Part shown: in pieces, positions 27,034 to 61,587 of the stretch
Layout: every line of letters begins with the position of its first letter
Position numbering within the stretch: the stretch's first letter is position 1
Origin: Arcobacter nitrofigilis DSM 7299
GTDB taxonomy: Bacteria > Campylobacterota > Campylobacteria > Campylobacterales > Arcobacteraceae
Length of the DNA stretch: 64,000 nucleotides
NCBI RefSeq assembly: GCF_000092245.1
Contig: NC_014166.1
Coordinates: forward strand, 496,001-560,000
Direction: 5' to 3'
The notes under the pieces: generated by a model
The model's input: only the letters and a program-made list of their open reading frames with translations
The model's database searches: none
Told to the model about the DNA's origin: nothing
Program-made: the position numbers and the translations under genes

Positions 27034-27069
27034 TACCAACTTAACAAAAAATAATCCCTTTAACCTAAA

Positions 27070-27100: not shown

Positions 27101-27131
27101 ATACTCTTTATTTAAACTTTAGGACAAATAT

Positions 27132-40446: not shown

Positions 40447-40475
40447 CAAAAGATAGAAATAGTTTCTATCTTTTG
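40447..40475 (-). terminator. Hairpin at the end of the PepSY cassette 1
   Basis: CAAAAGATAGAAA (40447-40459) pairs perfectly with TTTCTATCTTTTG (40463-40475), 3-nt loop, covering the stop of the 161-residue gene. Only a short T stretch follows on the minus strand, so termination efficiency is uncertain. Confidence 0.55.
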
Positions 40476-40951: not shown

Positions 40952-42522
40952 TTGTTAACCTTTTTTTTTAGTGTCCAAAATTGTTTTGCTTCATCTCTAT
41001 TATTAGGCAGCTTTTTTGCTATATAAATTAAAATTATTCCAAATAAAACTAAACCTATATCCACAGCAAGTATATTTGTTAGATTTAAAAGTTCTAATAT
41101 GGAAATATTTAAAAAAGCTACATGAAATACTACTGAGAGTATAAATAATAATCCTCCAATAAAAAAGAAGTTTTTAGCTGCTTCATAAGAATTTATTTTG
41201 TAAAAAGACCAAAAGAGAGTAAATAACCATATATTATAAAAAATTCCTTTTTGCCATAATACTCTATCTTGTAAATCAAAAGGAAAAATCCATTGCAAAA
41301 CAAATAGCATCCCTGTAGCTGGAATAACTCCTATCATACTAGTAAGGGAAAATTTTCCTATCCAATGATAAAAAATAATTTTATCTTGAAATTTCTTTGC
41401 TGTTTTTTCAAGAAATAACATTATCCCAAATCCAATTCCAATAGCACATAATGCCATTAGTAAAGCCATAATAACTCTAGAGAATATATCAATACCAAAT
41501 AAAAAGTGTAAGAAGAATAGTCCTTCTGCAACAAATACTGGCCACTGTTTATCCATTACTTTTTGATTTTTTATCAAGTTTCCTGTAACGGCACTTAATA
41601 TGATAGTTGGTTTGTTAAAAACACCTCCATTAAAAAATGGTTTGTATGGGTTATATCCTATAATCTCAACTTGTGCATTTTTATCATTCCAATTGATAAG
41701 TTTTATTTGTTTGAAGCTAAGTTGAGGATTTATTTGTTCTGCTTTTTTTAATAATTCATTTATATTCTTCATAGGAGTTTTTTCATTTAATCTTTTAGGT
41801 GCTTTATTTTGTTCAAATAATACTTTACCCACTAGTACATCAATACTTTTTGCTTTTCCTTTTGTAAGTATTTGTGACATTGGACCAGCTGTAATTAATC
41901 CTATATTCATAACAGCACCAGATATTGTAATCAAAGTTAAAGGTAAAAATATCCAAGAAAAGATTTCCACATGAAGTTTTGAAAAAAGCTCTTGTTGATT
42001 TTGTCCTTTATTTTTAAACTTCACTATAATAATTAAGATAAGTCCAGTGATTATTAATACAAGAGTTCCAACTGCCACAAATCCAAAAAATATCATTCCA
42101 ATAACTTTTAAAGGTCCACCATAGTGTAACTCATTTAAAAAATCAGCAAGACTAGATTGTTCCTTAGTTTCATTGATTATTTCTTTATTTGTTTTAGGGT
42201 TAAAGGCATGGGCTTTTGCAAATCTATGTGTAATTGTAACAGCTGGGTCACCCATATATCTTGGTAAATTTATAAGGATATTATCTTTTGGAAAATTTGG
42301 ATTTTCCAAAACTTTATTTATCATAGAATTATAATCAATCCTTGTTATATCAACTTTTTCAATAAGCCTTGATGGTTTTTCCCATGTTTTTATATATGGT
42401 AATAGTATTGTAAAAACACCGAAAAAAATAGATATGTACATAAAAGAAGAAAAAAGTATTCCTATTGCTATGTGCATTCTAAAAAGTCTTTGTTTAAATA
42501 GTTTTAATTTTGTTTCTTTCAT
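40948..42522 (-). CDS. PepSY-domain membrane protein, FoxB/PiuB-like (cassette 1)
   Basis: A 524-residue inner-membrane protein with an N-terminal helix, periplasmic PepSY-type segments and at least four helix groups; RMHIAIGILFSSFMYISIFFG at the start and FLFGIDIFSRVIMALLMALCAIGIGFGIMLF later are typical. Relatives such as FoxB are implicated in periplasmic reduction of ferric siderophores so that Fe(II) is released. Conserved histidines in the helices (HIAIG, HFLFG, HWIGKFS) could bind haem. It forms a cassette with the upstream small membrane protein and receptor. Paralog at 57319. Confidence 0.78.
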   Translation of the reverse strand: MKETKLKLFKQRLFRMHIAIGILFSSFMYISIFFGVFTILLPYIKTWEKPSRLIEKVDITRIDYNSMINKVLENPNFPKDNILINLPRYMGDPAVTITHRFAKAHAFNPKTNKEIINETKEQSSLADFLNELHYGGPLKVIGMIFFGFVAVGTLVLIITGLILIIIVKFKNKGQNQQELFSKLHVEIFSWIFLPLTLITISGAVMNIGLITAGPMSQILTKGKAKSIDVLVGKVLFEQNKAPKRLNEKTPMKNINELLKKAEQINPQLSFKQIKLINWNDKNAQVEIIGYNPYKPFFNGGVFNKPTIILSAVTGNLIKNQKVMDKQWPVFVAEGLFFLHFLFGIDIFSRVIMALLMALCAIGIGFGIMLFLEKTAKKFQDKIIFYHWIGKFSLTSMIGVIPATGMLFVLQWIFPFDLQDRVLWQKGIFYNIWLFTLFWSFYKINSYEAAKNFFFIGGLLFILSVVFHVAFLNISILELLNLTNILAVDIGLVLFGIILIYIAKKLPNNRDEAKQFWTLKKKVNK

Positions 42523-42531
42523 TAATAGCCT

Positions 42532-42834
42532 TTAGTATAAAATAAAAAGTGCAAGTGAAAATAAGATTGTAGGAATCATAAATCTAAGTAAGGCACTCCA
42601 TTTTGTATAAGATAATCCAATATATACTGTTGCTATTGCCCATGCTAAAGTATTAAACATAATAGATATAATTCCTGATTTTTGAACTTCAAGTGGAATT
42701 AAAAAAGCTAGTAAAGTCATACCTAAGTATGCTACAATTAAACCTCCAAATATGGAAGTTATTGTTCTAAATAGGCCTATTCTTTTACCACTTTTTTCTG
42801 GTGTTGATAAATATTTATATAGTTTTTGTATCAT
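42532..42834 (-). CDS. Small membrane protein of siderophore cassette 1
   Basis: 100 residues, three hydrophobic segments. GLFRTITSIFGGLIVAYLGMTLLAF and LRFMIPTILFSLALFILY parallel the 97-residue protein at 58886 (RLLSSIFGSLVVAYLL, LLKVIIPFILLFFIIY). It resembles the DUF3649-type proteins that sit between TonB receptors and PepSY proteins. Role unknown; it may support the reductase. Confidence 0.7.
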   Translation of the reverse strand: MIQKLYKYLSTPEKSGKRIGLFRTITSIFGGLIVAYLGMTLLAFLIPLEVQKSGIISIMFNTLAWAIATVYIGLSYTKWSALLRFMIPTILFSLALFILY

Positions 42835-42845
42835 TATTTCTTTCT

Positions 42846-44921
42846 TTAAAATTTATAACTGATTGTTGCAAGAACAGTTCTTGGATCTCCTACATATACT
42901 CTGGTATCACTTGTCTTACCTGAAGCTGATCCATCAACATACTCTTCATCTGTTAGATTTTGAACACTAATATTTGCTTTCCAATTTCCTTTTTTATAAC
43001 CAAGTGTTGCATTATAAATAATTGCAGAATCTAGTTTTATACTATTTGCATCATCTGCATATTTACTTCCTAAATATCTAGCTCCCGCACCAACATAAAA
43101 ATCTGGTAAATCAAAAGTAGATAATTTATATGTTGTGAAAATATTTGCTGTATGTTTTGGGATATTTCTTAAGTTTTTATCATCATTATCTTTATTTTTT
43201 GTTTTAGTATATCCATACGAAGCAATTACAGACCAATTTGATGTAATATCACCTGCTAAGTCTAATTCAAAGCCTTGACTCTCTTGTTTACCACTTGGAA
43301 CTGACCATCCACTATTAGAAGGAGCATCAGGATCTGCCAATGCAATATTTTCTTTTTCTATTTTAAATATGGCAGCTGTTAAATTTAATCTATCATCAAA
43401 TAGTTTTTGTTTGACTCCAATTTCATATCCTTTTCCTGTTTCAGGATCTAAAATATTCCCACTTTTATCTGTAGCACTATTTGGTGTGAAAGATTCAGAG
43501 TAATTTGTATATAGGCTTGTTTTATCTGTGACATGATAAACTAATCCAAATGAAGGGCTAATTGCATCAGTTTTTTTCCCATTTTTTGGTTTAGATTCAC
43601 TATATCTTACTCCTGCACTAAATATTAAGTCATCTGTTAGATTTATGCTATCTTGTAGAAATGTTCCCCACGATTTTACATAAGAATCTTTACCTGACAT
43701 ATCTCGTGTGATAGGATATGAATTTACAGGATTTATATGTTTTTCATAAACTGGATTTGAAAGATTTATATTATAAGCTTGTAAAGCAATATTAGAAGTT
43801 CCACTTGAATATGCTTTATTATAATCAGCACCAATACTAATGTTATTTTTTAAATTAAGTATTTTAAGCTCTTTATTAAGTGTATATTGTAAAGCATGCT
43901 CTTTATATTCACCTCTTTGATCCGCTGGGTATCTTGTGACTGTGTTTGTTGATTCATTATAAGAAAGTGGTAAATAAACATTTCCATAATCTCTTACATG
44001 TGTGATATATTTATATTTAAACTTAGAGTTCCAAGTGTCATAAATAGTATCAAAATTAAATCCAATAATTTTTTGTGTTCTTTTATACTCTTCATCAGGA
44101 TGGGAAGCAACATTTTCTATAGGTGCTACAAGCTCTCCCTTACTATTAACATTAGTTCCAAATCTTGTAGGAGTTGTTTCTTTAGTGTATTCACTAATAA
44201 AAGTAAAAGTGTTGTTATCATTTAGATCATAAGCTAAACTTGGAGCTATAAATATTTTATTTGTGTTTGTATTACTCTTTGTGTATCCCTCATCATATTG
44301 GTAAGTGGAAATAAGTCTAAAATATAATGATTTATCTTCATTTAAACTACCACCAATATCAAGTTTTGGAGTATAAGATGGATTGTCGTTTATCTCTAAT
44401 TCTATATTTGCAATAGTCTCTTTTGAAGGTTTCTTTTTAACTAAGTTTACTATTCCACCAGGACTTGATTGCCCATATTGCAATGAGTCTGGACCTTTTT
44501 GTATCTCAACTGCTTCTAAAGCAAAAACTTCTGGATTTGAGATTTTATTTGTAACTTTTAATCCATCAATTAAAATAGGAACTCCTGAAAATCCTCTCAT
44601 AGAAATATTAGTTGATTTTCCATCTGTATCACCAGTATAAACAGTATTTGATGATAATTCTATAATATCATCAATATTTCGAAGACTTGCATCTTCAATC
44701 AATGTTTTATTAAAAACTTGTATAGATTTGGCAGTATCTTCTATATCAATACCTGTACGATTTAATTTTACTTTTTCTTCACTTTGATAATTTGAAATGC
44801 CATTTTCAATAATATTAACTTCATTTAATGTTGTACTCTCTTGGGCAAAAAGTAATGGACTTGTTAATAAAAGAGAAGAAAGGCTTATTGATAAATTTCT
44901 TTTAAGAAATTCTTTTTTCAT
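42846..44921 (-). CDS. TonB-dependent siderophore receptor (FoxA/FhuE-like)
   Basis: A 691-residue outer-membrane receptor: signal peptide to about 26, plug with IEDTAKSIQVFNKTLI, STNISMRGFSGVPILIDGL and ALEAVEIQKGPDSLQYGQSSPGGIVNLVKKKP, then a barrel ending ISYKF. The plug resembles hydroxamate-type receptors (FoxA, FhuE, FpvA group), but the ligand is unproven. It is the first gene of a receptor/small membrane protein/PepSY/161-residue operon. A perfect Fur palindrome lies 40 bp upstream of the start. Confidence 0.88.
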   Translation of the reverse strand: MKKEFLKRNLSISLSSLLLTSPLLFAQESTTLNEVNIIENGISNYQSEEKVKLNRTGIDIEDTAKSIQVFNKTLIEDASLRNIDDIIELSSNTVYTGDTDGKSTNISMRGFSGVPILIDGLKVTNKISNPEVFALEAVEIQKGPDSLQYGQSSPGGIVNLVKKKPSKETIANIELEINDNPSYTPKLDIGGSLNEDKSLYFRLISTYQYDEGYTKSNTNTNKIFIAPSLAYDLNDNNTFTFISEYTKETTPTRFGTNVNSKGELVAPIENVASHPDEEYKRTQKIIGFNFDTIYDTWNSKFKYKYITHVRDYGNVYLPLSYNESTNTVTRYPADQRGEYKEHALQYTLNKELKILNLKNNISIGADYNKAYSSGTSNIALQAYNINLSNPVYEKHINPVNSYPITRDMSGKDSYVKSWGTFLQDSINLTDDLIFSAGVRYSESKPKNGKKTDAISPSFGLVYHVTDKTSLYTNYSESFTPNSATDKSGNILDPETGKGYEIGVKQKLFDDRLNLTAAIFKIEKENIALADPDAPSNSGWSVPSGKQESQGFELDLAGDITSNWSVIASYGYTKTKNKDNDDKNLRNIPKHTANIFTTYKLSTFDLPDFYVGAGARYLGSKYADDANSIKLDSAIIYNATLGYKKGNWKANISVQNLTDEEYVDGSASGKTSDTRVYVGDPRTVLATISYKF

Positions 44922-44960
44922 ATAATACTCCTGAAATTTTTATTTAGGGATATTATATAA

Positions 44961-44979
44961 ATTGATAATAATTATCAAT
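44961..44979 (-). promoter_or_regulatory. Fur box of the FoxA/FhuE-like operon
   Basis: ATTGATAATAATTATCAAT is a perfect 19-bp palindrome (9-1-9) matching the Fur consensus core TGATAATnATTATCA, 40 bp before the receptor ATG. Confidence 0.85.
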
Positions 44980-45026
44980 ACATAAGAAGACACTATGAGG
45001 AAAAATTTATTGGATAATGGGAAAAT

Positions 45027-46010
45027 TTAAAAATTATTGAGCTCTTTTCTATAGTCATTGGGGCTTATTTGAAAATTATCAAAAAATAACTTACTAAAAT
45101 AGCTAGCATTGTTATATCCTATTTTTATAGAAACTTCTTTTACGCTGAGGTTTTCTTTTAATAGTTTTTTTGCTACTTCTAATCGTCTTTTTTGAATCAT
45201 TTCTAAAATAGTCATGCCATAATACTCTTTAAAGTCTTTTTTTAAATAACATTCATTTATTGCAGATTTATAGGCTATAGTTTTTATAGATAATTTTGAA
45301 TTGTAGTTATTCATAATAATCTCTTTTGCTCTTTCTAAAGATAAGACTCTATCTTTTTTGAGGATTATTGAAGATGAACTACTTAAAGATTTGGAAATTT
45401 TTTCAATAGTATAGTGAAGTAAGTTTGTAATTTTTGATTCTAAATAAATACTTTTTAAAATATCTTCAAAAGAATTTTCATCTTTAAAATCAGTAGATAA
45501 TTCAAGTTGTAGTGCATCAATTTGTAAATCTTTCAAAATAAAGTAACTTTGTTCAAATGTAAGTTGCATATATTGCTCAATATCTGTAATTGGATGGGCT
45601 AATTTTAAAAACAGATTTTTCTTTATACCTATAAAAATATAGCTAAAAGGTTCATCTTTTTTTAACGGAGTTTCACAATAAAATTTATTGGATGCTAGTT
45701 CTAAAAAAAAGTGATTTTTCCTCAAAATATGTTCTTTTTTATCTTTATATTTAAAATTGATATTGGAACCAAAATTAAATATTAAACATGCTCCAGGAAC
45801 CTCTGACTCTTCATATAATAATAAATTTTTTTTAGGAATAAATTTTCTAACAAAAAGACCAATGCCATTTCCCATATCATAAAAAATAGAAAAGCCTTCT
45901 CCATATTCCTTTTTTATTTTAGATATGTAAGTCTCTCTTGAAAAAGGATTTTTTGTCTTTTTAACAATATCAAATAAATCTATATAATTTACTTTTATTA
46001 GGGTATTCAT
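45027..46010 (-). CDS. AraC-family regulator (copy 3)
   Basis: 327 residues, C-terminal double HTH from about 225 (LSIKTIAYKSAINECYLKKDF, LSVKEVSIKIGYNNASYFSKLFFDNFQISPNDYRKE). It is less related to the two YbtA-like copies but shares the YLKKDFKEYYG core with them. It lies upstream of and parallel to the FoxA/FhuE-like receptor operon, with the Fur box between them, and probably controls it in response to its siderophore. Confidence 0.85.
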   Translation of the reverse strand: MNTLIKVNYIDLFDIVKKTKNPFSRETYISKIKKEYGEGFSIFYDMGNGIGLFVRKFIPKKNLLLYEESEVPGACLIFNFGSNINFKYKDKKEHILRKNHFFLELASNKFYCETPLKKDEPFSYIFIGIKKNLFLKLAHPITDIEQYMQLTFEQSYFILKDLQIDALQLELSTDFKDENSFEDILKSIYLESKITNLLHYTIEKISKSLSSSSSIILKKDRVLSLERAKEIIMNNYNSKLSIKTIAYKSAINECYLKKDFKEYYGMTILEMIQKRRLEVAKKLLKENLSVKEVSIKIGYNNASYFSKLFFDNFQISPNDYRKELNNF

Positions 46011-46162: not shown

Positions 46163-46846
46163 ATGGGAATGAATGAATTTAAAAATTTAAAATTGTTATA
46201 TGTTGAAGATGAAAATAATATACGTAAAGTTGCTATGTCATATTTTAATCGCTTATTTGATGAGAGTTATGAAGCTAAAGATGCTTTAGAGGCATTTGAA
46301 ATTTTTAAAGATATTAAACCTCACATTATAGTAACAGATATAAAAATGGCTAAAATGTCAGGTATAGATTTAGTTAGAAAAGTAAGAGAACTAGATAGAA
46401 GATGTCAAATTGTCATTTTGACTGCATATACAGATACAAATTTTTTACTTGAAGCTGTAGAGTTAAATTTGGTGAAATACTTAATTAAACCAATACGACA
46501 TGATAAAATGCACTCTGTTTTAACTCAATGTGCTATAAATATAAAAGAAAATAGATTAAATCTTATTTATATTACTGCAAATTGTATTTATGATATTTTT
46601 AATAAAACACTTATTCTGAATAAACAAATAGTAAAGTTGTCTAAAACAGAATTGGAGTTTTTAGAATTATTGTGTATGAACTTAACTCGTGTAGTAACCT
46701 ATGAAGAGATAGAAAATAGAATTTGGTATGACTCTTATATGAGTGAAGATGCTCTTCGTTCTATGGTTAGAAAACTAAGAAAAAAATTACCAGAAAACTG
46801 TATAGAAAATGTGGCAAAAATGGGTTATAAACTTCAATGCCATTAA
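46163..46846 (+). CDS. OmpR/PhoB-type response regulator
   Basis: 227 residues. Receiver domain with acidic YVEDEN, phospho-acceptor Asp59 in VTDIKM, TAYTD and the lysine of LIKPI; then a winged-helix DNA-binding domain (about 130-225: LSKTELEFLELLCMNLTRVVTYEEIENRIW, ALRSMVRKLRKKLP, NVAKMGYKL). The target is unknown. The kinase follows with a 10-bp overlap. Confidence 0.88.
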   Translation: MGMNEFKNLKLLYVEDENNIRKVAMSYFNRLFDESYEAKDALEAFEIFKDIKPHIIVTDIKMAKMSGIDLVRKVRELDRRCQIVILTAYTDTNFLLEAVELNLVKYLIKPIRHDKMHSVLTQCAINIKENRLNLIYITANCIYDIFNKTLILNKQIVKLSKTELEFLELLCMNLTRVVTYEEIENRIWYDSYMSEDALRSMVRKLRKKLPENCIENVAKMGYKLQCH

Positions 46847-48552
46847 TTAGAATTATTATTTGTATTTTAATAATAAATATTTTTGCATATGCAAATGGCA
46901 GAAATAGCATAATAAGTGGGGTTTATATCTTCGTAAATAATGGAGAATATAAGAGTTATAAACAATATGATTTAAAAAGTGACTATTTTAAGAAATTCAA
47001 TGTAAAGTTAGAAATAAATAAAAAAGCCCTAGAAAATAAAACATACTATTTTTTTATAACTACTGATGTAAAAAATTTAATTAGTGCAAATGTTGATTAT
47101 GATAAAAATTTAGATGAAGTAATATTGAAAGTTAATAAAAACAGCCCTAAGAATATATATTTTTCATATGAATATGGAAAGCAAAAAACACTAAACTTTA
47201 AGATATTAATATTTAATGAATTTGAATATAAATATATATTAAAAAATAAAAGTATACTCTATGGAATAGCTTATGGAATAATATTCTCAGCTTTTTTATA
47301 TAATCTTGTTATCTTTTTAAGTACCAGAAGAAAAGCTTTTTTTTATTACTCTTTTATGCAATTGTTTTTATTGATTGTTTTAGTTGATATCGTTAGATTC
47401 TCAACTATGACATATAAAAGTTCTTTTGAAATTATAATTTTAGATATATTTGAAAATCTATCTTTGATAATGGTTATTCTATTTTCTAAAGAGATATTAA
47501 ATACTAAAAAAAATATACCACTTATTGATAACTTACTTAATATATTTGTAATATTAAATTTAATTGATTTATTTACTATCCCTTTCCTTGGATACTCTAT
47601 TTTATATGAATATATAACAAGAACAATAGTTATTTCAACTTTAATGCTTGCTGGACTAATTGTTCTATACAAAGGAGAAAAAACAGCGATTTTTTATATT
47701 TTAGGATGGAGTGTTCTATTTTTATGCTTAGCAATTAGTGAATATAATTTAATAGATATAAATGAACTGTTCATCTTTCATATTGGATTCCCCCTTGAAT
47801 CTATGATTTTAAGTTTTGCACTTGGATATAAATTAAAACAAAGTGTCCATGAAAATATTGAAAAAGAGCAACTTCTAGTGCACCAAAGTAAACTAGCTTC
47901 TATGGGAGAAATGATTAATAATATTGCCCATCAATGGAGACAACCCTTAACCCATTTATCTTTTATCAATATGGATATACAAACTGCACAAGAGAGCAAA
48001 GAGTTAGATGAAAATTATCTAAATGAAAAGATAAATGAATCTTATGATCAAATCGAATTTATGTCTCAGACTATTGATAACTTTAAAGACTTTTATCAAC
48101 CAGTTAAAAATAAAGAGCTATTTTTAATAAGTGAGGCAGTTAATAAAGCAATTAATATAATCAAACCATCTTTAGATAATTTGAATATAAATCTAAATTT
48201 TACAATTTATCAAGATAGTGAAGTAGAAGCATTTGAAAATGAATATTCACAAGTAGTCTTGAACTTTATTAGTAATGCTAAAGATGTATTACACATAAGA
48301 AAAATCAAAAATCCTAAAATAGATATTTTATTGGAAGTTACAAATAATAAAAGTATTTTAACTGTAAATGATAATGCAAAAGGAATTTCTGAAGATATTA
48401 TAAATAAAATATTTAATCCATATTTTAGTACGAAAAATAAAAGTAGTGGAATAGGGCTTTATATGTCAAAAATAATAGTTGAGTCACACTTCAAAGGTAC
48501 AATTAGTGCTTATAACACCAATGAAGGTGCTTGTTTCAAAGTTGAAATATAA
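46837..48552 (+). CDS. Sensor histidine kinase with 7TM-DISM-like input
   Basis: 571 residues. Signal peptide, periplasmic domain to about 130, a block of seven hydrophobic helices (about 140-330), coiled region, then HisKA with phospho-acceptor His365 in NIAHQWRQPL and an HATPase domain (NFISNAKD, NDNAKGIS, STKNKSSGIGLYMSK). The order is that of 7TM-DISM kinases, which sense extracellular ligands. It pairs with the response regulator. The last 43 bp overlap the convergent transposase-like gene. Confidence 0.85.
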   Translation: MPLIRIIICILIINIFAYANGRNSIISGVYIFVNNGEYKSYKQYDLKSDYFKKFNVKLEINKKALENKTYYFFITTDVKNLISANVDYDKNLDEVILKVNKNSPKNIYFSYEYGKQKTLNFKILIFNEFEYKYILKNKSILYGIAYGIIFSAFLYNLVIFLSTRRKAFFYYSFMQLFLLIVLVDIVRFSTMTYKSSFEIIILDIFENLSLIMVILFSKEILNTKKNIPLIDNLLNIFVILNLIDLFTIPFLGYSILYEYITRTIVISTLMLAGLIVLYKGEKTAIFYILGWSVLFLCLAISEYNLIDINELFIFHIGFPLESMILSFALGYKLKQSVHENIEKEQLLVHQSKLASMGEMINNIAHQWRQPLTHLSFINMDIQTAQESKELDENYLNEKINESYDQIEFMSQTIDNFKDFYQPVKNKELFLISEAVNKAINIIKPSLDNLNINLNFTIYQDSEVEAFENEYSQVVLNFISNAKDVLHIRKIKNPKIDILLEVTNNKSILTVNDNAKGISEDIINKIFNPYFSTKNKSSGIGLYMSKIIVESHFKGTISAYNTNEGACFKVEI

Positions 48553-49181
48553 GCCACATTAGATTTTTTTAAATGTAATAAGGAAAGAAGAGTTTCATAT
48601 AAAAAATCTTGTGAGTAGTTATAACGAAATTGAGACTCTTTTAAGTGTAAATATAGGCTATCTTTATTTAGTCCTCTAAATTTTTTTAATCTATTTTGAA
48701 TAAATCCTTGAATAGTATCATCGCTTTTTGTAAGATACAAGAGGGTGAATTTATTCTCTTTTTTATTAAATGAGATTTTTGCAGCATTTGCTTTTTTATT
48801 GTTTTGCAATGGTAGATGAATAGTATTATCTATAAACTTTTGAAGATTTGGAAAAGTATTTTCATTATTTTTAAAAATAAAAGCTTTTTTTTGACATTCA
48901 ATAAAATAGTTAATATATGGTCCATTTTTGATATATTTTATTAATAAGGTATTATTAGAGAAATGAGTATTTTTTATCATATAAAGCATCTCATCTTCTT
49001 TTGAAAGTAATAAGTTTCTAATAATTTTGTAATAATTATTTATAGTTTGTCTACTTAAATTTAGATTTTGAGCCGTTTGTATAGCAGTATAATCTTCTGT
49101 AAAATATTTACATATTTTTTTTAAAACATTAGCTTCGATTTTGGCATTTTTTAAATAATTTAATATTTCATTGTTACTCAT
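48510..49181 (-). CDS. IS1595-type transposase-derived protein, probably domesticated
   Basis: 223 residues resembling the ends of IS1595-family transposases: an N-terminal HTH (CKYFTEDYTAIQTAQNLNLSRQTINNYYKIIRNLLL, about 25-60) and the C-terminal IQGFIQNRLKKFRGL and SLYLHLKESQFRYNYSQDFLYETLL (about 160-210). The middle lacks the acidic catalytic motifs of the DDE domain. No terminal repeats are seen and the frame is intact, so it may now act as a DNA-binding protein. Its end overlaps the kinase gene by 43 bp; the feo operon lies upstream on the same strand. Confidence 0.65.
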   Translation of the reverse strand: MSNNEILNYLKNAKIEANVLKKICKYFTEDYTAIQTAQNLNLSRQTINNYYKIIRNLLLSKEDEMLYMIKNTHFSNNTLLIKYIKNGPYINYFIECQKKAFIFKNNENTFPNLQKFIDNTIHLPLQNNKKANAAKISFNKKENKFTLLYLTKSDDTIQGFIQNRLKKFRGLNKDSLYLHLKESQFRYNYSQDFLYETLLSLLHLKKSNVAYISTLKQAPSLVL

Positions 49182-49234
49182 ACATAAATTATATGAAAAA
49201 ACAATGGCTAAAGAATGTCCAAAAAAAGAAATTT

Positions 49235-52426: not shown

Positions 52427-53653
52427 TCATATTTTGTAACCTAATTGTTTGATAATTTTTTTAGCTCTTAATTTTTCAAACTTATTTGATAGAGCTTTTT
52501 TCAAATATTTTTTTGAGAACTCTTCTTTTTCTAATTCATAATAAGAAAGAGCCAACAAGATATTTTTTTGACCTTCATATTTTGTATTTTTTTTAAATTT
52601 TAAATTTTCTAAGGTGGAGATTACTTTTTTATAATTTGATTTATTGTAATAAATATTTCCTAGTAAAATTTCATAATATTCATCTTTAGCATTTACATTT
52701 GTAGTTAGAAGTTTTATAGCACGTTTTATATTTTTGGCATTTAGATGTGCATTAACTAAAGTTTTGAAATTTAATTTATCATCTTTTAAAATACCTTTTT
52801 TTATTCCATCTTCAATTAAAAGTGCAGCTTTATTATAGAGTTCATTTTGTAACAACATATTTATAAAATATTGTATATTGTTCTTATGATTAATCAACCC
52901 TTTGTCATAGGCTAATTCTAAAGTAGAAAGCATTTGTTTTTGGCCATTTGTATTTTGATAAATCAAAACTAACTGCATCCAGTACTCTTCTTTTGATTCA
53001 AAAGTATTAATCATATATTTAATAATCTCAATAGCTTTAGGATATTGTTTTAACTCAAAATAAGATGAATACAAAATTTTATACCAAGTCTCCAAATTTG
53101 GTTTTGTTTTATTTTTTTGTTTTTCTTTTGGAGTTTGTAGATACTCATCTAATAATCTTTTTTTATTTTCAATAACTTTTTCATCATAGATAATGCTTTG
53201 TTTATACTCTTCTGTATAATAGTATGCCAAAGTTAAATTTTGATAAATAAGTTCTTTATTGGTATCTTTTGATTTTAATAATTCTAATGAATATTTAATA
53301 CTTTTTTTATATAAAGTTTCAGATAAATATAGTTGAGATAAAACATATTTTACTCTGTTTATTTCATTGGTTTTAAAGGCATCTAATTTAAGAATCTTTT
53401 CATAATTTGATATAGCTTTTTTATATTTATTTTGCTCTAAATATATACTTGCAAAGCTTTGTAAAGCATAAGATGTAGTAATATTATTTGTATCTTTTAA
53501 TAGTGGTTTTAAAATATTAGAGGCTTGTTTATACTCTTTTTTTTCAATAAATTTTTCTGCTTCTTGTAGCTTATTAAATGCTGAGTTACTAAGGGTCTCT
53601 TTTGCAAAAGTTGATAAAACTAAAAGAGTTAAAATTAAAATTATTTTTTTCAT
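52427..53653 (-). CDS. TPR protein of the TonB2-like operon
   Basis: 408 residues: signal peptide (1 to about 17, ending TFAKE), then repeated helical TPR-like units over most of the length (for example LQEAEKFIEKKEYKQASNILKPLL and SIYLEQNKYKKAISNYEKILKLD). Comparable TPR proteins close the TonB2 operons of Vibrio-type systems and are periplasmic. ATGA overlap with tonB. Confidence 0.75.
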   Translation of the reverse strand: MKKIILILTLLVLSTFAKETLSNSAFNKLQEAEKFIEKKEYKQASNILKPLLKDTNNITTSYALQSFASIYLEQNKYKKAISNYEKILKLDAFKTNEINRVKYVLSQLYLSETLYKKSIKYSLELLKSKDTNKELIYQNLTLAYYYTEEYKQSIIYDEKVIENKKRLLDEYLQTPKEKQKNKTKPNLETWYKILYSSYFELKQYPKAIEIIKYMINTFESKEEYWMQLVLIYQNTNGQKQMLSTLELAYDKGLINHKNNIQYFINMLLQNELYNKAALLIEDGIKKGILKDDKLNFKTLVNAHLNAKNIKRAIKLLTTNVNAKDEYYEILLGNIYYNKSNYKKVISTLENLKFKKNTKYEGQKNILLALSYYELEKEEFSKKYLKKALSNKFEKLRAKKIIKQLGYKI

Positions 53654-54243
53654 CTTGCTAACCTAAAATTAAATTTTATAGTGGCAGTTTTTGAGTATTC
53701 ACTTCTGTTAAATTTCCATCTTTTAATTGCACTAATTGAACTATTTTCAAAAACACCTTCAGGATTGGATTCTACTACTCTAACATTTGAAACATATCCA
53801 TCTTTCCCAATATCAAAAATCAATTTTACATAACCCTCTTGTTTTTTAGATTTTGCATGTCTTGGATATTTTGGATTTACTTTTTTTAGTGGTGCTAAAG
53901 TATTTGCATCTAAAATAACTTTTGCTCCAGAGAGTGATGAGATTTTTGATATCTCAATTTTTTGTTGAATTTTAAAAGGAACAATCTTTACATTTTTTTC
54001 AGGTTCTGTGGAGTATTTTTTGACAAATTTTGGTTTTTGCTCTAATTTTTTAACTTTTGGTTTCTCTTGAATTCTTTTTTTTCTTTCTATTTTTGTCTCA
54101 TCTTTATCTCTTAAATAGACTAAATGTCGTAATTCACTTTGTTCTTCAAATTTTTTATTATTGCTATTTGTCATGATAAACATACCAAAAAATAAACCAA
54201 GACAAATAATAATAGAGAGACTAAGGGCTAAGAAAAATCGCAT
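53650..54243 (-). CDS. tonB: TonB energy-transducing protein
   Basis: 197 residues with one N-terminal helix (about 3-24), a charged Lys/Glu/Pro spacer (KKRIQEKPKVKKLEQKPKFVKK), and a C-terminal TonB domain: NPKYPRHAKSKKQEGYVKLIFDIGKDGYVSNVRVVESNPEGVFENSSISAIKRWKF. It is short, like TonB2-class proteins. It links the ExbBD motor to the receptors in this window and possibly others. Confidence 0.9.
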   Translation of the reverse strand: MRFFLALSLSIIICLGLFFGMFIMTNSNNKKFEEQSELRHLVYLRDKDETKIERKKRIQEKPKVKKLEQKPKFVKKYSTEPEKNVKIVPFKIQQKIEISKISSLSGAKVILDANTLAPLKKVNPKYPRHAKSKKQEGYVKLIFDIGKDGYVSNVRVVESNPEGVFENSSISAIKRWKFNRSEYSKTATIKFNFRLAR

Positions 54244-54244
54244 T

Positions 54245-54652
54245 TTAGTTATCTCTTAATGTAGAAATCGAGATATTAAAAATACCTGCAAGTCTTATTT
54301 GATCCATTACTTTTACTAAGATACCAGTTTTAGAATCTACATCTGATTGTATTACAACAGAATTTTGAGAATTTAAGGCTTTTAATCTTTCTATATTAGC
54401 TCTAATTGAGCGTATATCTACCATTCTTTTATCAATCCATATTTCATTATTGTTTTTTATAGCAATAAGAATATTTGCTTTACCTTTTTGTTCTGAGGAT
54501 TTTGCACTTGGACGATTTACTTCTATACCTGTTTCTTTGACAAAAGAGGTTGTAACAATAAAAAAAATCAACATAATAAAAACAACATCAAGCATTGGTG
54601 TTAGATTGATTTCTGTCTCTTCTTTATGTCTATGTTGTGAAAATCTTCTCAT
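54245..54652 (-). CDS. exbD: ExbD biopolymer transport protein
   Basis: 135 residues with one helix (about 21-41). LTPMLDVVFIMLIFFIVTTSF carries the conserved membrane Asp22 (Asp25 in E. coli ExbD) that couples to the proton gradient. The C-terminal periplasmic domain is intact. It follows exbB by 1 base and precedes tonB by 1 base. Confidence 0.93.
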   Translation of the reverse strand: MRRFSQHRHKEETEINLTPMLDVVFIMLIFFIVTTSFVKETGIEVNRPSAKSSEQKGKANILIAIKNNNEIWIDKRMVDIRSIRANIERLKALNSQNSVVIQSDVDSKTGILVKVMDQIRLAGIFNISISTLRDN

Positions 54653-54653
54653 A

Positions 54654-55172
54654 TTATATTACCTTGGAAAGTTCTAATTCAAATTTTTGTATTTTATATC
54701 TAATTGAAAGTTCTAGTTTTTTTTCAAATAAAATACCACTAAGTGCTACAGCCATTCCTGCCATGGTTGGAATAGTAGCCATTGATACACCATTTGCCAT
54801 AGATTTCACATCACTACTTCCAGTAATTGCCATAACATCAAATACTTCAATCATTCCCGTAACAGTTCCTAATAGACCAATTAATGGACAAACCATAATC
54901 ATAGTTTTGATTAAATCAAGACCTGATTTTAGTTTAAAAGATGAGCTGTGAAGAAAATATCTTTTAATCTCATCTTTAAATCTATTTTGACTATGGATAT
55001 TTTTAAGTTCTTTTATAATTGCTTTTTTCTCTTTTTTATAGGTAAAACTAACATACATATATCGCTCAATTAATAGTGTCCATAAAATAATTGCAAGAAA
55101 AAAAACAAAATATAAAACTAAGCCTCCCTTATCAAAAAAAGAGAATAGATCATCTATATATAAATCAATCAT
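54654..55172 (-). CDS. exbB: ExbB/TolQ-type motor protein
   Basis: 172 residues, three helices; LIKTMIMVCPLIGLLGTVTGMIEVFDVMA and MANGVSMATIPTMAGMAVALSGILF are the ExbB/MotA helices that form the proton channel with ExbD. The short length matches the ExbB2 of TonB2 systems. It lies between the TtpC-like gene and exbD, almost end to end. Confidence 0.9.
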   Translation of the reverse strand: MIDLYIDDLFSFFDKGGLVLYFVFFLAIILWTLLIERYMYVSFTYKKEKKAIIKELKNIHSQNRFKDEIKRYFLHSSSFKLKSGLDLIKTMIMVCPLIGLLGTVTGMIEVFDVMAITGSSDVKSMANGVSMATIPTMAGMAVALSGILFEKKLELSIRYKIQKFELELSKVI

Positions 55173-55173
55173 A

Positions 55174-56487
55174 TTATTTCAATGTTTTTGCTAATAACCC
55201 AATACTTTGTTCTTCTAATATAGATACAAGTTCTTCTGATTTTGAAGAGATATACGTATATGCAAAAAGAAGTGGTATTGCTGTAACTAATCCTAAAACA
55301 GTAGTAATCAATGCAGTTGAAATACCACCTGCCATAAGTTTTGGATCACCTGTACCAAATAAAGTTATGGCTTGAAAAGTTGCAATCATTCCTGTAACTG
55401 TTCCCAATAATCCCAATAAAGGAGTAACAGCTGCTAGAAGTTTTACAAAACTTTGGCCTTTTTTTATTTGTGTTGTTTCTTTTAAAATTGCTTGACCGAT
55501 TTTAATTTCTAAGTCATTAATAGAATCATTTGAGTTTTCATAAAAAATATGTGCAATCTTCCCTAATGAATTATCTTGGTTAATCTTAGATATATTTTTC
55601 ATCTGTTTTTTGATTTTTATTGAACTAATATTTAATACGATTATTTTAAATAAAGCAAATAGTAAACCTAAGGCTCCTAATATCAAAATAATATATCCTA
55701 CAATTCCACCTTGCGTTAGCCTGTCCATTATTGTAGGATTATTTGCAATCATCTCAAAAAGTGTACCTCTTGTTGGATCAATAATGATATTTGAAATTTC
55801 ATTTGATGATTCAAAATCTTTTGCTAATTGAACTGCTGAATCACTTGGTTGAACAGTTAATTCCACTAATGATTTCATATCATTTGAATAAGTTAAATAT
55901 TTACCATTTGATGTGGCAGCAAATAAACCAACTCTAGTAACTTTCTCTTTTGTCTTTTCTCCTGAAGCTAAAATTACATCAGCATCATATTGTGCAATAT
56001 TTCCACTTTTGATAATTTCATCTAACATTGAATACCAAAAATCTTTTAACTCATGGATATTTGCAAGTTTTTTAGAATTTGATAGTTTTAAAAATTGTTC
56101 TTCTTTATTTGGATCTTCTGATGCTGTTAATGAACTTTGAAAGTTAATTAAAAAATCAGAAGAAGTTTGTCTTACACTTCCAAATATTTCACCCAAATTA
56201 GCTGCTTTTATTTTTAGCTCTTCTTCTTTTTTGGCTAAAACTTTTTCTTTCTCATCAATTAGTTTTTTTAATTTATCAGTTCGTAGTTCTTCTTTTTTAA
56301 GCTCTTCTTCTGTTTGCTTAAGTAGCTTTTTTTGTTTTTCTTTATTATCAATAAATGTTTTTAATCTTTTTTGTTCTGCTTGTATTTCTTTTTTTGAATC
56401 ATTTTGAACACTTTGTAAAAGTGAATGTAAATCAATTGAAAATGATAAAGTGCTAAAAAGAGCTACTGTAAGTAAATATCGTATCAT
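55174..56487 (-). CDS. TtpC-like MotA/TolQ/ExbB protein with coiled-coil periplasmic part
   Basis: 437 residues: signal peptide (to about 17), a long coiled coil (about 20-95, KKEIQAEQKRLKTFIDNKEKQ), a periplasmic domain to about 260, then ExbB-like helices with LAAVTPLLGLLGTVTGMIATFQ and ISTALITTVLGLVTAIPLLFAYTY. This is the layout of TtpC, the extra component needed by TonB2 systems in Vibrio. It is in operon with DUF3450 and exbB. Confidence 0.8.
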   Translation of the reverse strand: MIRYLLTVALFSTLSFSIDLHSLLQSVQNDSKKEIQAEQKRLKTFIDNKEKQKKLLKQTEEELKKEELRTDKLKKLIDEKEKVLAKKEEELKIKAANLGEIFGSVRQTSSDFLINFQSSLTASEDPNKEEQFLKLSNSKKLANIHELKDFWYSMLDEIIKSGNIAQYDADVILASGEKTKEKVTRVGLFAATSNGKYLTYSNDMKSLVELTVQPSDSAVQLAKDFESSNEISNIIIDPTRGTLFEMIANNPTIMDRLTQGGIVGYIILILGALGLLFALFKIIVLNISSIKIKKQMKNISKINQDNSLGKIAHIFYENSNDSINDLEIKIGQAILKETTQIKKGQSFVKLLAAVTPLLGLLGTVTGMIATFQAITLFGTGDPKLMAGGISTALITTVLGLVTAIPLLFAYTYISSKSEELVSILEEQSIGLLAKTLK

Positions 56488-57233
56488 TTTGCTTCCTTTT
56501 TAGCTAAAAAGGGTAAGTTTAGCAAAGTTACATTCCCTTGTTTTTTTGCTATTTTAATAGCTTTTCTTATATTTGATTTTGAAGTATTATCTGTAATTTC
56601 TTGCCATTTTTTAGTCTCTTTATTGTAGTAACCATAATTTTTCAAATCCAAACTTTGATAATATAAAGCTACTCTTCCAAGTCGTAAAATGTTGTAACTT
56701 GTATTGCCTATTTTTTCTTGATATGCTTCTATTGTTTTAGCATAGTCATATTCTATTTTAAACGCTTCAAGGATAATTCTAAATTTTTCATTTGTTTTTA
56801 TATCTGCTTTTGAAAGACTATCTTCAAGTCTTTTTACCCTTTCTTCTCTTTCTTGTAGTAAAAATGGTGTATCAGACTCTATTAATATTTTTAATGAACT
56901 AATCATCTCTAACATAAGAGGGTAGATATTCTTTTTTGTTTGTTCAATATCAATTAATTGTTGATTTATGCTATTAAGTTCTTCTTTTTGAGAGAGAATG
57001 ATTTTTTCTAGTTGCTCATTATATTTTTGAGTATTTCTTAACTGAGCATTTTTTTGTTTATACTGGTCAAAAAGTGTTTCTCGTATATCTTCACTTTTAT
57101 CAATTTTTTTCTGATATGACTTTAGTGTATCATTACTTTTTTGTATTACATTAAGGGATTTGTCCAAATCTGAAGCAAAAAGTCCTGTTGATATAAAAGC
57201 AAAAAGTATAAGACAATTAAATGTTTTAAACAT
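56484..57233 (-). CDS. DUF3450-family periplasmic coiled-coil protein
   Basis: 249 residues: signal peptide (to about 20), coiled coil (LRNTQKYNEQLEKIILSQKEELNSINQQLIDIEQ), then a compact domain with EEREERVKRLEDSLSKADIKTNEKFRIILEAFKIEYDYAKTIEAY and the typical NILRLGRVALYYQSLD. DUF3450 proteins lead TonB2-like operons. First gene of this unit; the promoter with the shared operator module is at 57258-57316. It overlaps the TtpC-like gene by 4 bp. Confidence 0.83.
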   Translation of the reverse strand: MFKTFNCLILFAFISTGLFASDLDKSLNVIQKSNDTLKSYQKKIDKSEDIRETLFDQYKQKNAQLRNTQKYNEQLEKIILSQKEELNSINQQLIDIEQTKKNIYPLMLEMISSLKILIESDTPFLLQEREERVKRLEDSLSKADIKTNEKFRIILEAFKIEYDYAKTIEAYQEKIGNTSYNILRLGRVALYYQSLDLKNYGYYNKETKKWQEITDNTSKSNIRKAIKIAKKQGNVTLLNLPFLAKKEAK

Positions 57234-57257: not shown

Positions 57258-57316
57258 TGAGAATAGTAATCAAAATTAATTTAAATTTAGATTAATTTTA
57301 TTTCAAACATGACAAG
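57258..57316 (-). promoter_or_regulatory. Two-operator promoter module, copy A (TonB2-like operon)
   Basis: A Fur-like box TGAGAATAGTAATCA (57258-57272) lies beside an inverted repeat AAAATTAAT/ATTAATTTT (57272-57280 with 57291-57299) and an AACATGACAAG element (57306-57316, TTGTCA on the minus strand). The same three elements with identical overall spacing precede the FhuA-like receptor (61529-61587). Confidence 0.65.
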
Positions 57317-57318
57317 TA

Positions 57319-58884
57319 TTATTTGCCATGCTCATTTTTGGGAGTTTCAATAAAATATTTAATGGGAAGTTTATATGAAAAATATATTAATAATAATCCC
57401 AAACAAAATAAAACTAAATCAGTAAAAAATATTTCATTTAAGCCTAATTTGTAAGATTTATAGATGTTAAATCCACTTGTAAGATTATGTGAAATACTTG
57501 CAATTATAAATAATATCCCACTAAAAAATAGAGCATATTTACTTGCTTTATATAAAGAAGACACAATTTTTATATAAATAAATATTAATATAAAGGAGAT
57601 ATAAAATAGTACTTCTTGAGTATTATAAAGGTTATTTAAAAGATTAAAATGCATATATTGTTTTGGAATCATCCAAGTTGTTGCAAATAATAAACTACAA
57701 CTTAAAAGTGAACCTAAAACAACTGTATAACTCAAAGGTTCAAGAACTTTATATGTAAATTTATCTTTTTTTGCTCTATGCATCCACAATAATAGTGAAG
57801 CTGTAATCCCAAATAAAATAATAAAACATATAAGTGCAAAGAGAATTCTTGGAATATCACTAAATGTTCTTACAAAGTGTAAATAAAATACAGAATCTAA
57901 AGTTTTTTCAACAAATGTTCCATCACTAGCACTTTTTTTAGAGATAATTTCACCATTTGTACCATTTAAAACTACATAGCTTTCATTGTATACAGAACTT
58001 ATAAAAAATGTTTTAGGTTCATATCCTATAAATTTAACCCTAGCTTTTACATCATCTAGATTGTATATTTGTATAGAATAAAAAGAGATATCAGAAAAAG
58101 ACTCTTTGGCTTTTTTGTATAGAGTATTAATATCTAATGTTTTTACTTTTTGTGAAGGTGGATAGAGTTTTAAATCTCTATCTAATAATATATTTTTATC
58201 CACAGTTAATAGATTTGATGTTTTTGAATGTGTTAAATAATTAGTCATAACAGGAGTACTATATATTCCTAGATTAAATAGAGCTCCTGTTAATCCAAAC
58301 ATAAAAACTAAAGGCAAGGTATACAATAATAAAAGTCTATGGTACTTGGCAAAAAAACCTTTTACACTTTTAGTCTTTTTATTCTTGTAATTATTTTTTA
58401 TGATTAATACTATTCCACTAAGAGATAAAAATACAACAGCAACAGCAGCAAAACCGAAAATCATTTGGGCAATTAAAGATTTGAAAATACGACCATAATG
58501 TATCATTTCAAAAAACTTTGAAATAGTAAAACTTTTAGGTTTGATTTTTTTACAGGTATTTGGATTTAGATAAAAATTTGGTCTATTACTTAGTTGAATC
58601 AAGTTAGTTGATTTAAACTCTTTTGCTGGTAATAGAAGTTTTATAAAGTCATTTCTCATAACTTTACCATCTTCACCTATATATTTTCTTTTTTTTATCT
58701 CTTTTAAGCATTTTTCAAAATTTATATTTTGGATTTCTATATTAGAAATATGTTTTTGGCTATCTTCCCAAAAACTAACATAAGGTCTAAATATAGTTAA
58801 AATACCAAAAAATATTGAAATAAAGAAAAATAGTAAAACGTTTATACCTATTAGTTTGTGTATATTAAATAATCTTTTATTCAT
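57319..58884 (-). CDS. PepSY-domain membrane protein, FoxB/PiuB-like (cassette 2)
   Basis: A 521-residue paralog of 40948 with the same helix and loop order: LIGINVLLFFFISIFFGILTIFRPYVSFWEDSQKHI at the start, periplasmic PepSY-like parts, HFVRTFSDIPRILFALICFIILFGI and HLLISFLLW-type late helices. Probably a periplasmic ferric-siderophore reductase serving the FhuA-like receptor, by analogy with FoxB. It is the last gene of the receptor cassette; 1 base follows the 97-residue gene. Confidence 0.76.
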   Translation of the reverse strand: MNKRLFNIHKLIGINVLLFFFISIFFGILTIFRPYVSFWEDSQKHISNIEIQNINFEKCLKEIKKRKYIGEDGKVMRNDFIKLLLPAKEFKSTNLIQLSNRPNFYLNPNTCKKIKPKSFTISKFFEMIHYGRIFKSLIAQMIFGFAAVAVVFLSLSGIVLIIKNNYKNKKTKSVKGFFAKYHRLLLLYTLPLVFMFGLTGALFNLGIYSTPVMTNYLTHSKTSNLLTVDKNILLDRDLKLYPPSQKVKTLDINTLYKKAKESFSDISFYSIQIYNLDDVKARVKFIGYEPKTFFISSVYNESYVVLNGTNGEIISKKSASDGTFVEKTLDSVFYLHFVRTFSDIPRILFALICFIILFGITASLLLWMHRAKKDKFTYKVLEPLSYTVVLGSLLSCSLLFATTWMIPKQYMHFNLLNNLYNTQEVLFYISFILIFIYIKIVSSLYKASKYALFFSGILFIIASISHNLTSGFNIYKSYKLGLNEIFFTDLVLFCLGLLLIYFSYKLPIKYFIETPKNEHGK

Positions 58885-58885
58885 T

Positions 58886-59179
58886 TTAATCCAATCCGTA
58901 AATAATGAAAAATAGCAATATAAAAGGAATAATGACTTTTAATAGTGCTTCAATTTTAGTTTTTGATAAAACAACCCATAGTCCAATAGAAGACCAAAGT
59001 ATTGGCAAGAGTATAATTGCAAGTACAATATTTTCAAATATTGAAAAGTTTAATAATTGTGCAAATTTTATTAATAATAAGTAAGCAACTACAAGGGAAC
59101 CAAATATAGAACTAAGTAGTCTTATTGCTCCTAATGAAGCATTTGTATCTTTTTTAAATAAGTTTTTAATTATAGTCAT
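58886..59179 (-). CDS. Small membrane protein of siderophore cassette 2
   Basis: 97 residues, three hydrophobic segments, paralog of 42532 in size, position and sequence (RLLSSIFGSLVVAYLL). Its repeated presence between receptor and PepSY genes argues for a real role in the reductase system. Function unknown. Confidence 0.7.
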   Translation of the reverse strand: MTIIKNLFKKDTNASLGAIRLLSSIFGSLVVAYLLLIKFAQLLNFSIFENIVLAIILLPILWSSIGLWVVLSKTKIEALLKVIIPFILLFFIIYGLD

Positions 59180-59216
59180 AATAGTCTCTTTTTAATAGAA
59201 GAATTAAATTCTTCCA

Positions 59217-61496
59217 TTAAAATTTATATTTTGTAGTGAACATAAATGATCTACTAGCTGTCTGGGCACTTTGTATTGAATTGTTATTTAATCTAGCTTC
59301 TTTATCAAATAAATTATAGATATTTAAAGAGATATCCCAATTATTGTATTTTGTTCCAATTAAAGCATCAACAATTGTGTACTCATCCACATCGTAAAGT
59401 TTTTGAGGTCTACTTGGTAAATCAAATTGATCAACACTTAAAGCTTTTGATTTTCCTATATATTTAACACCTGCACCTATTTTAAAATCACCTATAGGAG
59501 TTTTTGGAAAAGTATAATCTGTCCATAATCTTACAGAAAAGTCAGGAATATCAGCTAAATCTCTTCCCTCATAAGCATGATTTGCCATATTTACTTCTTT
59601 TCCAGTCATTTTTGAAAATGAAAAAACAGTATTTAGATTTTCTGTAGGACTTGCAATAATATTAAACTCTAAACCTTTTACTTCTGCATCACCTTGTTGG
59701 ATACTATATCCTGTATGTTTAGGATCACTTTGCACTATATCTTTTTCTTTTAAACTAAATACTGCTACTGTAAATAAAGCATCTAAATTATTTGGTTTAT
59801 ATTTAATACCAGCTTCAACTTGCTTACCAATAGATGGGTCAAATGTATTTCCATCAAATCCTGATCCAATATTACTTTGAAAAGAAGTAGAATAAGAAAT
59901 ATAAGGAGTAATACCATTATCAAATAGATAACTCAAGCCAAATCTTCCAGAGAGATTATTATCCTTTTGTGAATTTTTTGTATTTTTAAGATGATCTGTT
60001 TTTTTCTGCTTTAATTTGTCATATCTCAGTGAAGAAGAAATAATAAAATTATTGTATGTTTTAATTTGACTTTGTGCATATAAACCTGTTTGGAAAGACT
60101 TTTGATTAAAATCCTCGGTATATGCATTTGAAGCACTTGGAATACTTGTTGGTTGCCTTGTGGTTAAATCATAAGTATATTGAGTAGGCTTAGTTGTTGT
60201 TCTATCATAGTCTGAGTATTGAAAGTCTATTCCTATCAATGAAGTATATTCTGCATTTTCAGTTTTTGCTGTATATTGTAAATTATTGTCTGTTGCAAAA
60301 GTCTTTAATTTAGAGTTAATTTCAGAATATTCTAAAGGAAATTGCGTTAAATCTGGAGATGAACTTTGTAATAAGGGAAATAATCCAGTAGCTGAAGGTG
60401 TTGAATAATTATATTTCCCATCCATTTTCATAACTCTAATATTTGAACGAAATTTCAAGTCATCATTAATATTGTTTTTATAAACAGTTGAAATAGATTT
60501 ATGATTTTTTTCAAAAATTTCTTTATCTTTTAGACCAATAAGTAAGTCATCAGGTAGATTTAAAGCATTTACTGTGGCTGCTGAATTTCTTATATTGTCA
60601 TCATAGGCTGGTGTAAGGCTCATACTAAGACTATTAAGATATGCTCTTATAGTTGCAGCCTTATCTGCAATACTATTGTGATAGTTCAAGATACTTTTAG
60701 CTCCACTAAAACTCATTCCCAAACCTTTGATTTGGTCTTTTGCCACAGAAGCAATAACATCTATTGAACTATCATCATCAATATAATATGTCAATGAAGG
60801 ATTAAAAAAGTATGATTTATTTGTTGAATCTTGTAACTCATTATCCCCTTCTTTATATTTTCCTGTCAATCTAAATAGGGTTTTTTCATTGATAACATCA
60901 CTTATATCTGCAAAAACAGATTTATTATTGTTTGAAGCATATGAGATACCTATTTCTTTTAAAGGCTCTATTATAGGAGTTTTACTTTGCATATTAATAA
61001 GACCACCAGGAGCACTTGCTCCATAAAGAACAGATGCTGGACCTTTTAATACTTCAACTCTCTCTAATGCATAAGGATCAATGTTAGGTATTAAATGACC
61101 AGCATAAAGTAGTTTCATACCATCTAAAAATGTTGATTTATATAAATAACCAATACCTCTTAGTTTCCCATAATTTGTTCTATGATCACCATTTTCACCA
61201 TATGGTTGAGTAACGGCTGATACATAAGAAGTAACATTTTGAATACTTTGCGCACCAATGGTATTCATCATATCATTGGTAATGACAGATACCGATTGTG
61301 GAATTTCTGTAATATCAATGTCCATTTTAGAACCTGTTGAACTTTTAGTTGCAACAATACCTTTTAATTGTCCATAAGCACTTTCTTGATATCCAATAAC
61401 ATCTTGTGTAATATCTGAAGATGTATCTTCTGCCTGTAAAAAAGAGCTAGTACAAACACTAATTAAGCTTGCACATAATATATTACTTAACTTCAT
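59217..61496 (-). CDS. TonB-dependent receptor, FhuA-like
   Basis: A 759-residue outer-membrane receptor. After a signal peptide (to about 22), the plug shows IPQSVSVITNDMM, YGKLRGIGYLYKSTFLDGMKLLYAGHLIPNIDPYALERVEVLKGPASVLYGASAPGGLINMQSKTP, strongly like FhuA of hydroxamate (ferrichrome) uptake. The barrel ends TKYKF. It heads the receptor/small membrane protein/PepSY cassette and has the two-operator promoter module at 61529-61587. Ferrichrome as ligand is an inference. Confidence 0.87.
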   Translation of the reverse strand: MKLSNILCASLISVCTSSFLQAEDTSSDITQDVIGYQESAYGQLKGIVATKSSTGSKMDIDITEIPQSVSVITNDMMNTIGAQSIQNVTSYVSAVTQPYGENGDHRTNYGKLRGIGYLYKSTFLDGMKLLYAGHLIPNIDPYALERVEVLKGPASVLYGASAPGGLINMQSKTPIIEPLKEIGISYASNNNKSVFADISDVINEKTLFRLTGKYKEGDNELQDSTNKSYFFNPSLTYYIDDDSSIDVIASVAKDQIKGLGMSFSGAKSILNYHNSIADKAATIRAYLNSLSMSLTPAYDDNIRNSAATVNALNLPDDLLIGLKDKEIFEKNHKSISTVYKNNINDDLKFRSNIRVMKMDGKYNYSTPSATGLFPLLQSSSPDLTQFPLEYSEINSKLKTFATDNNLQYTAKTENAEYTSLIGIDFQYSDYDRTTTKPTQYTYDLTTRQPTSIPSASNAYTEDFNQKSFQTGLYAQSQIKTYNNFIISSSLRYDKLKQKKTDHLKNTKNSQKDNNLSGRFGLSYLFDNGITPYISYSTSFQSNIGSGFDGNTFDPSIGKQVEAGIKYKPNNLDALFTVAVFSLKEKDIVQSDPKHTGYSIQQGDAEVKGLEFNIIASPTENLNTVFSFSKMTGKEVNMANHAYEGRDLADIPDFSVRLWTDYTFPKTPIGDFKIGAGVKYIGKSKALSVDQFDLPSRPQKLYDVDEYTIVDALIGTKYNNWDISLNIYNLFDKEARLNNNSIQSAQTASRSFMFTTKYKF

Positions 61497-61528
61497 CTTT
61501 CACCTTTTAATTATCTAATTTATGATTT

Positions 61529-61587
61529 TGAGAATAATAATCAAAATTTAGTTAATCTAAACTAAATTTATTAGTCAACATGACAAG
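61529..61587 (-). promoter_or_regulatory. Two-operator promoter module, copy B (FhuA-like receptor)
   Basis: Fur-like TGAGAATAATAATCA (61529-61543), perfect inverted repeat AAATTTAGTT/AACTAAATTT (61544-61553 with 61560-61569) and AACATGACAAG (61577-61587). Element order and the 48-bp offset from Fur box to AACATGACAAG equal those at 57258-57316. Confidence 0.65.

Follow-up and report, generated by a model that had tools for sequence, protein, structure and literature searches.

PfeR/PfeS of Pseudomonas aeruginosa exemplifies a two-component system that controls a TonB-dependent siderophore receptor. The system described here lies in a window of 64,000 nucleotides of Arcobacter nitrofigilis DSM 7299 (NC_014166.1, positions 496,001 to 560,000), the whole stretch of DNA that was analysed, and consists of a repeated promoter module with the element CTTGTCATGA and of P0001, a transposase-derived helix-turn-helix (HTH) protein that we propose as its activator. 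Like PfeR/PfeS, for which PMC8001512 gives the receptor context, it would tie a histidine kinase and an OmpR-type regulator to a TonB receptor under a Fur iron-responsive layer. Unlike that system, a transposase-derived protein appears between the regulator and the receptor, and the operon of the TonB energiser would belong to the regulon. Mobile-element proteins exapted as regulators are also established, as in TldR, derived from TnpB (PMC13418256), and FHY3/FAR1 in plants (PMC13306707), and recruited mobile-element proteins in prokaryotes have been reviewed (PMC8987985). P0001 resembles TldR and FHY3/FAR1 as a mobile-element protein that would serve gene control without an enzymatic role; however, TldR is RNA-guided and FHY3/FAR1 are eukaryotic derivatives of Mutator-like elements, whereas P0001 is of the bacterial DDE family and is proposed to contact DNA directly through its HTH. 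Two-component control of siderophore receptors (PMC8001512) and the exaptation of mobile-element proteins (PMC13418256, PMC8987985) are already known. In literature that was mostly without subscription journals, searches on transposase-derived iron regulators, on 7TMR-DISM kinases associated with siderophores and on iron regulation in Arcobacter gave no description of an IS1595-derived regulator or of this motif or module, in agreement with the original prediction that the module is a candidate undescribed regulon signal. For the Arcobacteraceae, whose iron regulation has been little described, the pair would provide a protein and its DNA site through which the siderophore receptor and the TonB energiser are controlled together, and it likely exemplifies the conversion of a bacterial DDE transposase into a site-specific regulator.

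The two 59-bp copies that had been predicted lie at 57258-57316 and 61529-61587 and, aligned without gaps, are identical at 44 of 59 positions, a value reached by 4 of 200,000 random window pairs. The common offset claimed for their elements holds for TGAGAATARTAATCA, which is Fur-like, and for AACATGACAAG at the end; the AT-rich inverted repeat was not borne out as a feature. Since the operons served by these promoters are on the minus strand, AACATGACAAG is to be read as CTTGTCATGTT and forms the upstream end. In promoter orientation, both copies consist of CTTGTCATG, 36 nt and GATTAYTATTCT, where a Fur-like box covers the predicted -10. The conserved module on the minus strand is CTTGTCATGA, TAAG and then the -10 carrying the Fur-like box, at fixed spacing, and the consensus from 36 sites is CTTGTCATGA-N13-TAAG-N6-TTTA-N9-GATTATNATTCT. 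CTTGTCATGA lies at about -60 to -51. The GAGAATARTAATC overlapping the -10 is like a Fur box (by sequence resemblance only); unlike a simple Fur box, it forms only one layer of the module. Composites of CTTGTCATG and Fur/-10 in promoter position are limited to these two in the 3.19-Mb genome. AACATGACAAG alone has six exact genome copies, of which just two are in such promoter context, and was rejected as a signal by itself. TTGTCA was likewise rejected as a sigma-70 -35, since about 44 nt from the -10 is too far.

The pattern CTTGTCATG-N37-ATTATNATTCT, with at most two mismatches, was searched for in 104 Arcobacteraceae genomes and gave 45 matches, against 1 for the reversed pattern used as control. 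Nearly all precede one of three operon types, namely the receptor, a small transmembrane (TM) protein with PepSY, or DUF3450-ExbB-ExbB-ExbD-TonB; a few do not (e.g., in G079, in G081 and at 502533 in the A. nitrofigilis genome). The expected conservation in relatives was borne out, and the specificity for siderophore genes is near-complete. In other genera, the region preceding the DUF3450 orthologs keeps CTTGTCATG at the same distance from the Fur/-10 element, but the intervening sequence is replaced. Many genomes have a second form, CTTGTCATGA ... TAAG ... GAAATAATTCC, between the receptor gene and a divergent homologue of P0001 (29 family-wide matches versus 2 for the control). Its distance from CTTGTCATGA to the -10 is the same as in the first form, its TAAG lies 11 nt further downstream, and its Fur-like box lies below the -10, unlike in the first form. 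Element and spacing are kept across seven genera while the intervening sequence diverges and the Fur-like boxes are placed differently. Judged from these sequence comparisons, the 59-bp repeat is a genuine regulatory site and distinguishes a small group of Arcobacteraceae siderophore-uptake operons. Module variants with CTTGTCTTG or CTTGTCCTG were seen in G106, G118 and G032 (L187, L189, L115); those of G118 and G032 adjoin a more diverged response regulator and perhaps represent a paralogous specificity.

The P0001 gene is located 8 kb from the module in the same window. P0001 matches no Pfam family above threshold, and PF12762 (DDE_Tnp_IS1595) does not match it even at E 10, annotated IS1595 transposases matching at E 1e-27 or better. 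When a 20-member P0001 alignment was compared with IS1595-family transposases by hhalign, the score was 98.0% (E 1.8e-13, 190 columns), with at most 0.6% for the decoys (15 column-shuffled profiles and a reversed one). This profile similarity over the full length supports an IS1595 ancestry. P0001 shares the N-terminal HTH, the overall length and the C-terminal K-F-x-G ... LKE ... RFN with IS1595 transposases (PF12762; ISAcra1, ISEc75). In contrast to these, in which the catalytic motifs (DES, a second D and H-I-N-G-I-E) are invariant, it has none of them among its invariant columns. It is mostly single-copy, nearly always with one close copy per genome, and syntenic with iron genes. Since the catalytic motifs are not conserved, P0001 is very unlikely to be an active transposase. 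Its AlphaFold2 model (predicted local distance difference test score of 85) has an N-terminal HTH with helices 17-28, 33-40 and 44-72. A second structural aligner, used besides Foldseek, ranked the DNA-binding domains of Mos1 transposase first for the HTH with a middling Z of 5.8, and the central domain resembled transposase/integrase cores weakly (Z 3.7-3.8 only). With such a Mos1 score, the fold is consistent with a transposase but does not prove one.

Three lines of evidence connect P0001 with CTTGTCATGA. The pattern is matched in 26 of 29 genomes with a P0001 ortholog versus 6 of 75 without one (Fisher p 1e-15, uncorrected for phylogeny). A diverged element was seen on inspection in the three P0001 genomes that lack a match (G027, G103, G105), and two of the six matching genomes without P0001, G108 and G118, have real modules. 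The G118 assembly is a fragmented draft, and its contig bearing the response regulator stops immediately next to that gene. Natural loss points in the same direction: four genomes (G028, G070, G069 and G088, the last with a contig starting inside the PepSY gene) keep the receptor, response regulator, kinase, small TM protein and PepSY but have no P0001, and neither CTTGTCATGA in their receptor promoters nor, by tblastn, a P0001 remnant in their receptor loci was found. Finally, base 4 of the receptor-adjacent site is A instead of G in five genomes, and residue 45 of P0001, where the putative recognition helix begins, is Q in 18 of 18 genomes with G4 and V or P in 5 of 5 with A4. It is the sole covarying column among 183, and a random choice of five genomes gave a covarying column 0 of 5000 times. 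G062 (P45, A4) and G071 (Q45, G4) form a matched close pair. P0001 is thus likely the protein that binds CTTGTCATGA. The original prediction that a second regulator links transporter and energiser is supported as to a two-regulator module, although the site of this regulator would be CTTGTCATGA, listed there as a third element, plus TAAG instead of the inverted repeat.

The P0001 gene may itself be controlled by the adjacent two-component pair. Most P0001 promoters contain a direct repeat of 11-bp period (e.g., AGCCAT-N5-AGCCAT). Some 10 nt separate its end from a TATAAT-like -10, and this -10 is in turn only some 6 nt away from the start codon. The half-sites agree within a promoter beyond chance (11 of 20,000 re-dealings). 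Of the four genomes without P0001, three have the same arrangement of repeat and -10 immediately ahead of the receptor, and a repeat of opposite orientation remains in G069. We suggest that the direct repeat is probably the site of the neighbouring OmpR-type regulator, which would drive P0001 where it is present and the receptor directly where it is not.

In the proposed mechanism, P0001 would bind CTTGTCATGA and probably also the TAAG elements nearer the promoter, and would activate rather than repress the receptor, the small-TM/PepSY operon and the DUF3450-ExbB-ExbB-ExbD-TonB operon. In the presence of iron, Fur would shut the same promoters by covering the -10, and the kinase and regulator would probably switch on P0001 through the direct repeat. 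Expression of the target genes would then require both low iron and a signal, perhaps the ferric siderophore.

Several observations weigh against this mechanism. The covariation comprises two evolutionary events only, and the V clade with another fifth genome also yields a column in 1 of 18 choices. The receptor sites of genus g13 retain TTGTCATG, whereas several first-architecture sites there read TTATCATG although its P0001 has Q45. G004 has a site with spacing one shorter and G108 a CTTGTCTTG variant module, both with no detectable P0001; in G071, P0001 is split in two frames although the site is intact; and in the sister species G001, the DUF3450 promoter has lost its good site and a poor one remains. 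The best-scoring repeat lies outside the P0001 promoter in G035b, G100, G103, G104, G105 and G106, and Foldseek of the P0001 model against the PDB gave nothing significant (best E 0.03), leaving the DDE/RNase H-like part unconfirmed. Owing to the exceptions in G004, G108, G001 and G071, we hold at about 0.7 the probability that the domesticated IS1595 transposase P0001 activates a siderophore-uptake regulon through CTTGTCATGA, with Fur and two-component layers. The broader proposal, that P0001 founds a family of sequence-specific bacterial activators from a DDE (IS1595) transposase, interposed on the path from a two-component system to a siderophore regulon, its absence going with the regulator's box directly at the receptor, we favour with somewhat less assurance.

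The OmpR-type response regulator might itself bind CTTGTCATGA, with its PhoB-box-like TGTCAT, and leave P0001 a bystander. The TAAG elements, about 11 bp apart between the architectures, have an OmpR-family-like phasing, and most genomes have kinase and regulator genes close to the module. However, the four genomes that bear the regulator and lack P0001 do not have the element, none of 227 response-regulator columns covaries with site base 4, and the direct repeat is a better candidate site for this protein, all of which makes its binding to CTTGTCATGA unlikely. An AraC-type, PchR-like regulator acting as at the pyochelin and yersiniabactin receptors would fit the presence of AraC genes both in the window (19201, 23847, 45027) and, in several genomes, close to modules, but it is a very improbable candidate: the receptor promoters adjoining the window AraC genes have no module, and none of the module neighbourhoods of G083, G087, G016 and G035 showed a close relative of AraC 45027.

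The adjacency of the receptor and TonB operons and the presence of Fur-like boxes might also suggest plain Fur-regulated promoters of shared ancestry, in which CTTGTCATGA is a passive duplication remnant. This explanation has little to recommend it, as CTTGTCATGA and its spacing are kept over seven genera and two architectures with differently placed Fur-like boxes. The inverted repeat was the operator of the second regulator in the original prediction, and its arms are indeed paired at 10 of 10 positions in the 61529 copy (p 0.010 against shuffles) and 9 of 10 in the 57258 copy (p 0.33). It is not enriched in 26 other modules (mean p 0.71, none below 0.05), is not conserved at the sister species' two sites among these, and has almost no information at most of its columns in the alignment of module sites. 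We rejected it as an operator, a role that is extremely improbable, and regard it as an AT-rich accident of this genome.

Table 1. Features of the proposed regulatory system in the window and its target operons (window coordinates)
Feature	Coordinates	Strand	Remarks
OmpR-type response regulator (P0002)	46163..46846	+	Receiver and Trans_reg_C domains
7TMR-DISM histidine kinase (P0003)	46837..48552	+	7TMR-DISM and HATPase_c domains
P0001, IS1595-transposase-derived HTH protein	48510..49181	-	223 amino acids; proposed activator on CTTGTCATGA
Predicted -10 (TATAAT) of P0001	49188..49193	-	6 nt before ATG; near-leaderless transcript predicted
GGACAT-N5-AGCCAT direct repeat	49204..49220	-	P0001 promoter; 11-bp period; proposed response-regulator box
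Target operon	52427..57233	-	DUF3450, ExbB, ExbB2, ExbD, TonB, TPR protein
Fur-like box, module A	57258..57272	.	Overlaps predicted -10; Fur by resemblance only
Module A	57260..57316	-	CTTGTCATG (57308-57316), 36-nt spacer, GATTACTATTCT (-10/Fur); precedes DUF3450-ExbB-ExbB-ExbD-TonB-TPR operon
Target operon	57319..61496	-	Receptor, 97-amino-acid TM protein, PepSY_TM protein
PepSY_TM protein	57319-58884	-	
97-amino-acid TM protein	58886-59179	-	
TonB-dependent siderophore receptor	59217-61496	-	TIGR01783 above cut-off
Fur-like box, module B	61529..61543	.	Overlaps predicted -10; Fur by resemblance only
Module B	61531..61587	-	CTTGTCATG (61579-61587), 36-nt spacer, GATTATTATTCT (-10/Fur); precedes FhuA-like TonB receptor operon

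The nearest equivalogs of the receptor in the target operon are FhuA and FoxA, both far below their cut-offs. Elsewhere in the window, the AraC-type genes at 19201-20157 and 23847-24869 are each divergent from a TonB receptor, and the latter is followed by two ABC-exporter-like genes and then transporter-like genes; this region (19201-30682) is a PchR/YbtA-like arrangement without the CTTGTCATGA module. The region 40466-46010, with an AraC gene (45027-46010) followed by a receptor, a 100-amino-acid TM protein, PepSY and a 161-amino-acid protein, is a paralogue of the target operon that likewise lacks the module.

The 3' ends of the P0001 and histidine kinase genes overlap by 43 bp on opposite strands (48510-48552). 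In Arcobacter cloacae, the P0001 counterpart is annotated as a hypothetical protein only (WP_129013749.1), and the 189-kb plasmid pACLO carries the whole cassette of receptor, P0001, resistance-nodulation-division pump and two-component system (L215:4677-14552). For relatives in other Campylobacterales families (G255, G265, G318), no adjacent TonB receptor was recognised and no module was found. Two distant relatives with a zinc ribbon, L148:6011-6664 (IS1595 zinc ribbon, E 0.003) and L210:1027-1683 (DDE_Tnp_IS1595, E 2e-4), are possibly further domesticated IS1595 proteins, and one of them adjoins hydrogenase-maturation-like genes.

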